DNA of 64,000 nt from Pseudomonas sp. B21_DOA (GTDB lineage: Bacteria; Pseudomonadota; Gammaproteobacteria; Pseudomonadales; Pseudomonadaceae). Location: NCBI GenBank assembly GCA_030544685.1, contig CP086683.1:2170001-2234000 (forward strand), read 5' to 3'. Shown here one piece after another: positions 2,835 through 7,116 of this stretch. The notes under the pieces were generated by a model that worked only from the letters and a program-made list of their open reading frames with translations, made no database searches and was not told where the DNA came from. The stretch's first letter is position 1, and each line of letters starts with the position of its first letter. The position numbers and the translations under genes were made by a program.

Positions 2835-4831
2835 AGAACGGCGCGTTACGTTTGAGGGTGTTGATCTGCGCCGGGGTCAGGACTTGGCCGGCCTTGTCGG
2901 CATCCGCTTGTTTCAACACGCCGGGCATCAAGGGCGCAGCACCAGTCCCACTGCCAGGGCTGCCACCGGAATTCATGTTGATCACCGGCCCGCTCATGGT
3001 CACGCCGCCAGCATCGATCTTGATGAAGCTGCCGCCGCCGACCAGGGTCAGCTCCGCACCGGCTTCCATCACCACTTTCATGCCGCTGCTCAGGTGGATT
3101 TCTTGCCCGGCGTCGATGAACTGTCCGGTGCCGATCTTGATGTGCTGGTTGACGCCGACGGTGAGGTGGTCGTTGGCGCGGGTTTCGACTTTGCGGTCGG
3201 CGTAGACGGTGTGGTGTTCTTCGGCTTTGAACTCCGTGTAGCTGTTTTGCTCGACGGTGTCGTGGCGTTCGTTGGCGACGCGGATTTTCTGATCGTGCTC
3301 GATGTTTTCGTCCCAGTCGCGCTGGGCGTGCAGGTAGATCTGTTCCTGGCCTTTTTGTCTTCGATGCGCAGTTCGTTGTAGCCGCCACCACCCATCGAAC
3401 TCAGGGTCTTGAAGGTGCTGCGGGTCTTGTTCGCCGGCAGTGGATAGGGGACGGTGTTTTCCTTGTGGTACAGGCAGCCGCTGATCAGCGGTTGATCGGG
3501 GTCGCCTTCAAGGAACGTGACCAGCACTTCCATGCCGATGCGCGGGATGGCGATGCCGCCGTACTGGGCGCCGGCCCAGGCGCTGGAGACGCGCAGCCAG
3601 CAGCTGGTCTTGTCGTCGGCCTGGCCTTCGCGGTCCCAGTGAAACTGGACTTTGACCCGGCCGTACTCGTCGCAGTGGATTTCTTCGCCTTTCGGGCCGG
3701 TAACTACGGCGCTCTGGCTGCCGAGGATGCGCGGTTTCGGGTGGCGCAGCGGCGGGCGGTTGGGCACGTCCATGGCGTGGCCTGGAAGCGGTTGCGGTAG
3801 CCCTGGTGGAAGTCGTCTTTCAGCGCCGTGGTGTCGCTGGTCACCGACTCTTCGAGGACTTGCGGCTGTTTGCCTTCGTGCAGGACTTCAGTGAGCAGCC
3901 AGAGGTCGTTCCATTTGGCTTTCGGGTGTTCGGTCAGGGCGAGGAAATGACCGCTGACCAGCAACGGCTGATCGCTCTTGCCTTCGGCGAGCTGGAAGTC
4001 GCTGCGGTGGCGTTCGAGGGCGCGTTTGGCCAGGTGCTTTCCGCGCTCACGGTCGATGAAGCGGCCCGGGTAATCGTAGTCTTCGAGGTCGGGCAGGGCG
4101 TCGCCACGGTTTTCGCTTTCCAGGGTCAGGCGCGGTTTTTCGAAGTCGTAGTCGCGGCGGGTGGTGCGGCTGGTGCGGGTTTCCAGGCGCAGGTCGAAGC
4201 GCTTGATCACCGGGTTGCTGGCGACCATGCCGGAGTCTTGCTGATAGGGCACCGGGGCCAGTTTCGGGAACACCGTCTGGTCGTCGCCGAACACCAGCTT
4301 GTGCGCCGTGGCGCTGTGCTGGAAGTGGTAGTGAATGCCTTCCTCTTCGCACAGGCGCTGGATGAAGTGCAGATCCGACTCGTCGTATTGCACGCAGTAG
4401 ATGCGTTCGGGATAGATCGAGCCGGTCTTGAATTCGTAGGCGTTGCCTTGAATACCGTGCTCTTCCAGCACCATGCCGATGATTTTCGGCACGCTGAGGT
4501 TCTGGAAGATGCGCTGGTTGATGCGGTGCGCCAGATACGCCAGTTGTGGGCGCAGCGTCACCGAATAACGCGTCAGACGCTTGCCGGAATCGCCTTGCGC
4601 GGCGCGGTAGATCTGGCCATGAATGCCGCTGCCGTCAGGCGACAGCTGCAGAAAGGCCGGTTTGTGCAGCAGGGTTTCGAGGTCCAGCGACGGCTGCTCA
4701 CTGACCAGCTCCACCTCGAAAACAAAAGGCTGGCTGATGGCTTCCCGGCCGGTCAGGGTGAATACCTGAAAATCGGCGGAAAGCCCTTCGATGGTCAGGG
4801 CAAAGTGGGTTTCATTGGCCGGCGCGAACAT
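2791..4831 (-). CDS. vgrG: T6SS tip protein VgrG (two apparent frameshifts)
   Basis: This is the trimeric spike of the type VI secretion tail. Residues ~5-380 contain the gp27/phage-D-like part ([16 protein letters not shown] at the start, [22 protein letters not shown] in the middle). The gp5-like OB fold follows ([21 protein letters not shown]), then the needle repeats and a Cys-rich C terminus (CEECEKC). The reading frame breaks at about 3770 and 3350. In each case restoring one C in a CC run recovers the family sequence, giving about 680 residues, a normal length. The start at 4831 is chosen because AAGGG and AGGA lie just upstream; an ATG at 4876 is also in frame. It lies downstream of hcp and upstream of the adaptor and effector. 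The breaks are probably sequence errors. Confidence 0.9.
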
Positions 4832-4965
4832 CCCTTGTTCCTCGTGCTGTACAGCGGCGCTCGTCGACGACCGCAAAAAAGCGGCTCAACGTACGCGAAA
4901 TTCTGGAGGGGCGTAAACAACATCGACCAGCAGAGCTGGCCGATGCGTGTAACGGTCAGCCGTAA

Positions 4966-5481
4966 TTAAACGACTGGAGCACGCCAGTCATCGGAACCCG
5001 AAGTACCGGATACTTCGTGGGTCCAGGTGATTTTGCGGTAGGTGAACTGCACTTCTTCCAGGTGGGTGAAGTGCGCGTTGCCTGGATCCTGGCAGTTGTG
5101 CATTTTGTTGTTGATGGCGACGATGATCGCGTCTTCCAGTTTGGTGGTGTAGTAGTGCTCTTGGGTGCCTTGAGCCGAAGTGCGGTACCACTGGATAACG
5201 ATTTCGCTCATGCGCTCGCCGGAAGTCAGAGCTGCTTGCAGCAGTGGCGAAGCCTTGTCGTAGACCTTGGTGATCACAACTGGCTTGTGAACGCGCTGAC
5301 CGGTTGGCTGACCGGATTGCGGGTCACGCGGGATGATCACGTCGTGGGTGAAAGCCTGAACCATGACCTGGTCTTCGTGGCCTTCCTGGTAGGTGTTGCC
5401 AACGGAGTCAGCGGTGAATGCGCCTGCAGTGATCAGGCCTTGTTTTTCGCCGGTAACCGACATGTACGCTGGTGTTGCCAT
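4966..5481 (-). CDS. hcp: Hcp, T6SS inner tube protein
   Basis: The 171-residue protein is a typical Hcp: it starts MATPAYMSVTGEKQGLITAG, has the EGHEDQVMVQAF segment, and ends in the beta-strand region FTYRKITWTHE. Hcp hexamers stack to form the tube that is fired by the sheath and can carry effectors. A GGAGAG ribosome binding site lies upstream of the ATG. It stands at the head of a tip cluster (hcp-vgrG-adaptor-rhs) with no sheath or membrane-complex genes in the window, so the main T6SS apparatus must lie elsewhere. Confidence 0.93.
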   Translation of the reverse strand: MATPAYMSVTGEKQGLITAGAFTADSVGNTYQEGHEDQVMVQAFTHDVIIPRDPQSGQPTGQRVHKPVVITKVYDKASPLLQAALTSGERMSEIVIQWYRTSAQGTQEHYYTTKLEDAIIVAINNKMHNCQDPGNAHFTHLEEVQFTYRKITWTHEVSGTSGSDDWRAPVV

Positions 5482-5649
5482 GGGGTGCTCTCCTTGCGGA
5501 TAAAGTTAGGGTGCCCGGAGGCGAAATCGCCCGGTGGGTGGCTGACTGTTATCAAGGAGCGTGCCAGGTTTTGTGCGATGCCCGGATGGCGGGGGCGGCG
5601 CGGTAGTTGGTCATCATTCGCGGCGATTTTCACCGCGATAACCGGGAGA

Positions 5650-5695
5650 AAGTGCGCAAGAAGTTGCGCAGTACTGCGCAACTTCTTGCGCACTT
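5650..5695. repeat. Perfect 46-bp palindrome containing two TGCGCAA-N4-TTGCGCA units
   Basis: The left arm from 5650 to 5672 is the exact reverse complement of 5673-5695, with no loop. Each arm is itself an imperfect hairpin (TGCGCAAGAAGTTGCGCA), so the element is two inverted copies of one dyad. It could be a pair of operator sites, a cruciform-forming element, or the remnant of an inverted insertion. It is unlike the REP families elsewhere in the window. Confidence 0.9.
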
Positions 5696-5752
5696 GGCTG
5701 CAGGGCTTGTGCCGCCCGGGCTGCAGTGCATTCACGTGCCGGAATATTACGA

Positions 5753-5780
5753 CCTACTGCGCAACTTCTTGCGCAGTAGG
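5753..5780. repeat. 28-bp hairpin sharing the 46-bp palindrome core
   Basis: The 12-bp arms CCTACTGCGCAA and TTGCGCAGTAGG flank a CTTC loop. The inner 18 bp repeat the core found twice in the palindrome 58 bases upstream. Three copies of one dyad in 130 bp suggest binding sites rather than a transcription terminator, since no T-run follows. Confidence 0.85.
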
Positions 5781-6029
5781 GCATTTGTCCGAAAAAGCGC
5801 GATGTAGGAAATTGGGCGTTTCGGCGAGGCTATACGTCTGTAGGAAATTCCTGTTTTTGCATCGCTTTCGCCTAAAAGCCCCCGATCGATGATTTTTCCG
5901 TTAATCATTCGGTTCTCACGTTTCGCTGCTGATACTCGGCTCTTTATTTGACTCGACAAAGTCCGACGATGGCCATCGTTGCATGTGTCTTACGGAGAAA
6001 TTTTTATTGAAGAAGGACGCTTCAGGAAA

Positions 6030-7116
6030 ATGATCAGCAGTCATCGATTGACTTATCTCGACTCTGTCCGGGCCTTGGCAGCGCTGGCAGTCGTGGTTTC
6101 TCACTATATTGAAAGAACGCCATTGTTCGACTGGGCAGCTTTCGATTATTTCCGTCCCGGGCAGTTCGGAGTCGTGGTTTTTTTCATGGTCAGCGGGTTC
6201 GTGATTCCGTTCAGTTTCAAGGACGGACCCGGCAAGAACCGGCAATTCCTGATTGCAAGATTCTTCAGGTTGTACCCGGCTTATTGGTTGTCAGTGATAC
6301 TGGCCTGCTTCGCGATCGTCTTTTTTGTTTCGGGGAACTTGCTACAAGCAGAGTGTTGGCAAATATAACCATGATTCAGGCCGTGTTGGGATATCCCAAC
6401 TTGTTTGGCGTGTATTGGACTTTATTTGTCGAACTGGTTTTTATGGCCTTTGCATCGCCCTGAGTATCTTCGGCTTGCTTGAGCATCTCAAGGCACGGTT
6501 CTGCCTGGCCATGGCGTTATTGTTGCTTGCGCTGGCGGGAGCGGCAGGAAGATATTATTACTCTGTTCCGTCCCCTGTCGGAATACTGTCATCGCTATCC
6601 TTGATGTTGTTTGGAGGGATGTGGCGCAACTATCAGATCGATCGGGATCTGCGGGCAAAACAATACAGCATCATCTGGATTGTGATGTTTGTTGCTGTAT
6701 TTCCGATCATCGCCCTGCTGACTTACGATGTCGATCAAGGGCTGCGAGAGAGTGCGTGGAATTTTACCGGTAGTTACTTTGCTGCGCTGATCTTCTTTAT
6801 GTTGGCCACTACGATATTGAAGCTGGAAAGTCGGGTGCTCGCTTTTTTAGGAGGCATCAGCTATTCCGTCTATCTGGTTCATCCGTTCTTTCTTGAGTTG
6901 GCAAATTCGAGAGTGAATTTGCAAAGCAGTTTCAATATTCCAGTCTTTGTACTTTATTGCACGAGCACGCTTGTCTTCTCATCGCTTTGTTATTTCGTGA
7001 TAGAAAAGCGCTCGATCCGATTAGGCAAGCGTATCAATGCTGTCCTTGATGCACGGTCGGCGAACAGCAAAGCGCTCGTCGCAGCGAAGGCATTATCGAT
7101 CGAAGCGGGAGCCTGA
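6030..7116 (+). CDS. Acyltransferase 3 family membrane protein, copy 1 (two apparent frameshifts)
   Basis: This is an integral-membrane acyltransferase (OatA/WecH-like fold) that would O-acylate a surface polysaccharide or other envelope glycan. The N terminus has the family signature RLTYLDSVRALAALAVVVSH with the conserved His, then FFMVSGFVIPFS and RFFRLYPAYW; the C terminus has GGISYSVYLVHPFF. The frame breaks at about 6335 (GGGG) and 6440 (TTTTT). Adding one base to each run gives 362 residues, exactly the length of the next gene, and aligns with it throughout (NITMIQAVLGYPNLFGVYWTL). It is more AT-rich than its surroundings. The ATG at 6030 is chosen because family homology begins there; an in-frame start at 5979 exists. 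Confidence 0.82.

Follow-up and report, generated by a model that had tools for sequence, protein, structure and literature searches.

The upstream region of an hcp gene in Pseudomonas sp. B21_DOA carries three copies of an 18-bp dyad, TGCGCAA-N4-TTGCGCA, and the locus raises the question of which protein reads these sites and which genes they serve. We address it from a window of 64,000 nucleotides (contig CP086683.1, positions 2,170,001 to 2,234,000; window coordinates below count from its first base) and from hcp loci of related genomes. Control of hcp-vgrG islands by sigma54 and a dedicated activator is already established in Pseudomonas and Vibrio. In P. aeruginosa, Sfa2 and RpoN activate the hcp2-vgrG islands and RpoN ChIP-seq peaks lie at the hcp2 homologues; the Sfa2 ChIP-seq, as described in the accessible parts of that study, had a high background and gave one clear site 2132 bp from an RpoN site, with none clear at other clusters or islands (PMC8855297). 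The sequences bound by VasH in V. cholerae were still undetermined in 2018, according to the accessible text of PMC5963220. As far as these two sources go, how the regulator is targeted to its islands is therefore a standing question. Even the sign of regulation has been reported in two ways: deletion of sfa2 in P. syringae lowers hcp2 promoter activity (PMC7283901), while Sana et al. 2013, as quoted in the accessible text of the same paper, describe Sfa2 as a negative regulator of the H2-T6SS.

All three cores in the window match the dyad exactly. Dyad C, the promoter-proximal copy, occupies 5653–5670 (TGCGCAA-GAAG-TTGCGCA on the plus strand) and is a candidate activator site whose place is conserved; dyad B lies 22 bp from it at 5675–5692 (TGCGCAA-CTTC-TTGCGCA, plus strand), and the distal dyad A a further 83 bp from B at 5758–5775. 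As the preliminary description held, dyads B and C together form a perfect, loop-free 46-bp palindrome (5650–5695; arms 5650–5672 and 5673–5695, 100% complementary by an inverted-repeat check), and dyad A sits in a 28-bp inverted repeat with a 4-nt loop (5753–5780; arms 5753–5764 and 5769–5780, 100% complementary by the same check). The 46-bp palindrome is the longest of its loop-free, perfect kind in the window, the runner-up measuring 22 bp. A first-order Markov chain predicts 0.0024 exact cores for the window and 0.23 for the genome; the counts seen are 3 and 6, and a reversed control pattern of the core gave no matches. Weak look-alikes are somewhat frequent in the window (27 matches with at most three mismatches, 9.9 expected). 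Symmetry of this extent could indicate that the palindromes act as structure, whether as a cruciform, an RNA hairpin, a terminator, a repeat or a mobile-element end. However, a terminator scan found no terminator-like site on the palindrome or the hairpin, in line with the lack of a T-run recorded earlier, and no Rfam family reached its gathering score over 5000–6500.

The nearest gene on the minus strand is hcp (tssD; 4966–5481), which encodes the 171-aa T6SS tube protein (PF05638, TIGR03344). Its ribosome-binding site, read from the sequence as AAGGAG 8 nt 5' of the ATG (5490–5495, minus strand), falls in a conserved block, and a motif match places a sigma54-type promoter element, TGGCAC-GCTCC-TTGAT (-24/-12; GG-N10-GA), at 5551–5566 on the same strand. 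Also on the minus strand are vgrG (tssI; 3090–4876; PF05954, PF04717), which is read in two overlapping frames (3704–4876 and 3090–3773), a DUF4123 adaptor-like gene (2064–2834; PF13503) and a large ORF with a DUF6531 family match (1–2064) that leaves the window at its edge. The last of these follows the DUF4123 gene and is probably the cargo of the island.

Within the 5.94-Mb genome the exact core is found at two places only, three copies at each, and both places precede hcp. The second (C1:3208030-3208152) is part of an island that matches window positions 2882–5791 at 95% identity; hcp, vgrG and the DUF4123 gene are present in both islands, the dyads are identical between them, and the stretch from B to A has diverged. 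A search of the genome with the window Hcp recovered the two island genes and one distant relative (42% identity, with an internal stop). Homology between the islands stops at 5791, just beyond dyad A, and the next long ORF past the second set of dyads is a 482-aa minus-strand frame (by ORF reading only). The dyads had initially been placed before the divergent acyltransferases as well as before hcp. Because the homology ends at 5791 and a different ORF lies beyond the second copy, they belong instead with hcp on the minus strand, and we dropped the acyltransferase link.

In each island vgrG is broken into two overlapping frames, and the position of the break is shared (window 3090–4876; L005 5133–7267 in the second). 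Other split genes are clpV (L082 16580–19236), tssA (L083 6666–8227) and the first acyltransferase (window 5979–7116). The splits are likely long-read indel errors in this assembly (single contig, 95.3% complete), although a vgrG break common to both islands would be odd for sequencing errors.

To follow the array beyond this genome, we took the best 80 of 394 relatives from an Hcp search of genome contigs, all 97–100% identical and chosen by the Hcp protein rather than by the dyad; 76 had 600 bp of upstream sequence. The core recurs before hcp/vgrG islands in Pseudomonas, a point that the preliminary description had proposed to check: all 76 loci with 600 bp upstream carry at least three dyads with at most two mismatches (three in 75, four in one). 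Among the remaining loci, one cut at 212 bp has two dyads and three are too short. Across the 80 loci, 208 exact cores fall in the 340 bp upstream of hcp, compared with one in the 607,560 other bases, a distribution that contradicts random scatter without a link to promoters.

The conserved unit in these loci is the 18-bp dyad rather than the 46-bp palindrome. Arms are perfect in 205 of the 228 single dyads of the 76 loci, and the middle N4 is GAAG or CTTC, in either direction, in 204 of them, whereas the 40-bp B–C stretch is perfectly palindromic in 37 of the 76 equivalent pairs of relatives. These proportions favor a dimer on each dyad over a cruciform or RNA hairpin. Moreover, the inferred transcription start is downstream of the dyads, which would leave them out of the hcp mRNA, and the copies are not dispersed but confined to two genomic places. 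A structural element, which had been offered earlier as the alternative to an operator, is accordingly a very improbable account of a full palindrome that relatives do not maintain. In an alignment of the 76 upstream regions with that of the window, conservation was 0.92–0.93 over the dyads, 0.87 over the promoter and 0.79 in the leader adjoining hcp; the spacers scored 0.51 and 0.40, and the sequence past the array 0.31.

The position of the dyads relative to the promoter is equally constant. The TGGCAC-N5-TTGAT element, with at most two mismatches, is present in 79 of the 80 close loci, the exception having only 61 bp upstream. Dyads A, B and C lie about 208, 126 and 104 bp from it; among the 75 loci that have exactly three sites, 73 show distances of 206–210, 124–127 and 102–105 bp. 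All three values are near whole helical turns, and the sites could share one face of the DNA. Enhancer dyads of sigma54 promoters typically lie about 80–250 bp upstream at a conserved distance, and the dyads of the window and close loci fall within this range, also at a conserved distance. Upstream activating sequences of the NtrC/NifA type are short dyads some 100–200 bp upstream of a -24/-12 promoter, bound by Fis-type HTH domains; the window dyads differ from these in sequence and in standing as three at locked spacing before T6SS genes. The -12 dinucleotide is GA, not the usual GC, with A in the window and in 72 of the 76 close loci; the published -24/-12 element is GG-N10-GC (PMC9993120). 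GG-N10-GA was also seen in 26 of the 40 divergent same-genus loci described below, and C at this position in 4 of the 20 loci from other genera.

More distant hcp genes keep the promoter throughout and the dyad in most cases. Forty same-genus loci of at most 92% protein identity, hand-picked among the matches listed, all retain the promoter (no more than one mismatch in 9 positions; control windows 2–4). In 33 of them one dyad or more with at most three mismatches stands at the expected place; 7 have none. At control places of these loci no dyad was found within three mismatches, and the count never fell below 6. The 20 loci that we hand-picked from other genera of the family all have the promoter within two mismatches (controls 2–4); one dyad or more within three mismatches is present in 14, a level reached at 2 of 60 control places. 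One of them (G387) carries three dyads with 0, 1 and 0 mismatches.

Searches that started from the sites led largely back to the same genes. Of 30 loci retrieved by the paired dyad, 24 have an hcp relative and 4 lie at a contig edge; the other two precede a VasX_N gene and an ORF of no family, both with a sigma54-like element. A search for the exact core gave 29 loci (one per genome), comprising 10 with an hcp relative, 2 with tssA, 3 at a contig edge and 14 where a single core has no hcp or tssA nearby. None of these 14 has a GAAG/CTTC middle; such lone exact cores look like chance matches, and exact cores average 0.41 per genome across the 138 genomes that lack the activator. In a few loci the array also stands before tssA or another T6SS gene. 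Two genomes, G193 and G077 (L029, L030), have dyads before a tssA that is about 13 kb away from the activator gene; the scan used did not find a sigma54-like element beside these dyads. The suggestion of a dedicated T6SS operator is supported in part, by the recurrence of the array before hcp at a fixed distance from the sigma54-type promoter, but not in its link to the acyltransferases. In one locus (L216) the promoter is 800 bp from dyad C, compared with the usual 104; the roughly 700 bp of extra spacing is perhaps an insertion, which would make this locus a naturally occurring test of whether the enhancer works from farther away.

The T6SS itself encodes a candidate reader. The genome holds one TssK gene and a single T6SS cluster. 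About 2.2 kb from the TssK gene, beside a clpV-like gene, is the gene for a 509-aa activator (P0001; C1:835051-836577) with an AAA+ sigma54-activation domain (PF00158) and a Fis-type HTH_8 domain (PF02954), plus a GAF match below the cut-off. This protein is of the Sfa2/VasH kind, and P. fluorescens MFE01 has the same gene order with the activator gene named sfa2 (accessible text of PMC5256989). Among 298 Pseudomonas genomes, with the activator called at E<=1e-120, 86 have both the paired dyad and the activator, 9 the pair only, 74 the activator only and 129 neither (Fisher 8.6e-20, a P value that overstates independence since the genomes are related). The pair is present in 46 of 46 genomes whose activator is at least 90% identical, in 2 of 37 with a listed identity below 66%, and in none of 11 activator-positive genomes without a listed identity. 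TssK was detected in 3 of the 9 genomes with the pair alone; of the six others, one has a completeness of 73%. Five hcp loci with a sigma54-like promoter (L306, L331, L332, L380 and L383) are in genomes without an activator at this threshold (G267, G034, G238, G280 and G172, the last with TssK); these are possibly stranded islands.

The recognition helix of the activator appears to vary with the site. A first comparison, of 20 activators from genomes with the pair and 20 from genomes without it, showed no division by helix. A second matched each helix to the hcp upstream region of the same genome, giving 35 comparisons in 34 genomes (G018 twice). These genomes were hand-picked and represent few lineages, and several of the Leu type were added once one had been spotted. 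In this set, 26 of the 30 comparisons with Arg at the variable position of the helix show a dyad and 4 do not, and the 5 with Leu all lack one (Arg versus Leu, Fisher 3.9e-4, again a P value that overstates independence); three further Leu or Ile activators without an hcp upstream region lay outside the comparison. Four of the five Leu-type genomes, together with G280, have instead ACGGCAA-N4-(T/C)TGC about 195–197 bp from the promoter, a variant defined from the sequences bearing it, so that its presence there is description. The covariation of helix and site offers support, though not proof, for the activator as the reader of the dyads.

The fixed geometry of the sites, their link to hcp, their conservation, the co-occurrence of the activator and the helix covariation lead us to conclude that the dyads very probably constitute a triple enhancer through which the activator of the main cluster drives the hcp-vgrG islands. 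The dyads would be upstream activating sites of a sigma54-dependent hcp promoter, each 18-bp site bound by a dimer of the Sfa2/VasH-type protein. Bound dimers would oligomerize, the DNA would loop over about 100–210 bp, and ATP hydrolysis would open the sigma54-RNA polymerase complex at TGGCAC-N5-TTGAT, turning on hcp and vgrG together with the cargo genes. With the activator in the main cluster and its sites at orphan islands, tube, spike and cargo would be made along with the machine. Binding by the activator, looping, activation and the signal behind them are steps that we infer from sequence comparison. Evidence against an enhancer of this kind comes from the 74 activator-only genomes, the 7 of 40 divergent hcp loci without a dyad and the 4 of 30 Arg-type cases without one. 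The departure of the -12 dinucleotide from GC, the first helix comparison, the P. aeruginosa reports of no clear Sfa2 peak at the islands and of a negative role for Sfa2, and the binding of CueR described below also weigh against it.

The main T6SS cluster of the window genome bears on whether a different protein might read the sites, such as another sigma54 activator (for example FleQ) or a repressor. Its tssA (the two frames at L083 6666–8227) has no dyad in front: L083 6901–9500 offers nothing closer than 4 mismatches, and the stretch preceding tssA nothing closer than 5. Elsewhere in the cluster, matches with 2–3 mismatches in L082 fall inside ORFs by their coordinates, and L083 and L084 contain one 3-mismatch match each. 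A tssA without a dyad slightly lowers the case for the enhancer and slightly raises that for another protein. FleQ affects the T6SS in P. fluorescens and P. putida (accessible text of the review PMC10482370), and 23 stretches of the genome match the sigma54-activation domain, 20 of them strongly. Restriction of the exact core to hcp in this genome is nevertheless ill-suited to a global regulator, and the paired dyad tracks the T6SS-encoded activator and its helix; we thus consider a different reader unlikely.

Another candidate reader of the sites comes from P. aeruginosa. Truncation EMSAs there mapped binding of the MerR-family regulator CueR to a 50-bp hcp2 segment, -208 to -159, and a cueR mutant makes more Hcp2 (PMC6907878). 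This segment contains the same dyad pair, one exact and one with three mismatches, 21 bp apart and at a similar distance from the start codon. The accessible text assigns it to the copper regulator and mentions neither its symmetry, nor a third site, nor the sigma54 geometry. The dyads could on this basis be CueR operators that repress hcp when copper is plentiful, but the authors themselves state, in that text, that the hcp2 sequence differs from known CueR sites. Our genome has one cueR gene above the cut-off; in the 3.4 kb around it (L355) no dyad comes closer than 4 mismatches, and exact cores are restricted to the two hcp sites. A CueR half-site pattern gave nothing clear at cueR or at the window dyads. 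CueR also leaves unexplained the fixed geometry relative to the sigma54-type promoter and the covariation with the activator helix, and as an account of the dyads we find it improbable.

The proposed triple enhancer has near counterparts in other systems. The P. aeruginosa hcp2ABC-vgrG promoters likewise serve orphan hcp-vgrG islands, there under RpoN/Sfa2 control; in the accessible text, their repeats are neither defined, counted nor assigned to a protein (PMC8855297). The VasH/RpoN system of Vibrio is similar in its T6SS-encoded activator, sigma54 hcp promoter and orphan clusters, going by the accessible parts of both reports (PMC5963220, PMC9972734). IHF contributes in Vibrio (PMC5963220, accessible text), whereas no conserved block is evident between dyad C and the promoter here (mean 0.40). 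A dyad named as the Sfa2/VasH site was not found in the literature covered, which comprised main texts and the smaller part of the subscription papers, and Sfa2 is not listed among the mapped factors in the main texts of two regulator surveys of P. aeruginosa. Within this incomplete coverage, we did not find the enhancer, its triple geometry, its spread or its probable reader in print.

A broader and more doubtful idea, which we put forward tentatively, is that the triple dyad serves the whole family as a "T6SS address tag" and co-evolves with the activator, and that the CueR site of P. aeruginosa is the same tag, from which copper may displace Sfa2. If so, an hcp, spike or effector operon that gains the tag would join the regulon of the T6SS activator, and the change from Arg to Leu in the helix of one group would have accompanied that from TGCGCAA to ACGGCAA, with the inner GCAA kept. 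This would be a possible natural case of a regulator and its site changing together. Reading the dyads as activator sites also offers an alternative view of the published CueR result. A defined 18-bp site in fixed geometry makes the question of how one regulator serves scattered islands directly testable, and the dyad gives a sequence handle for locating orphan islands and new effectors. In Pseudomonas, the array probably marks which of the scattered weapon genes switch on together.
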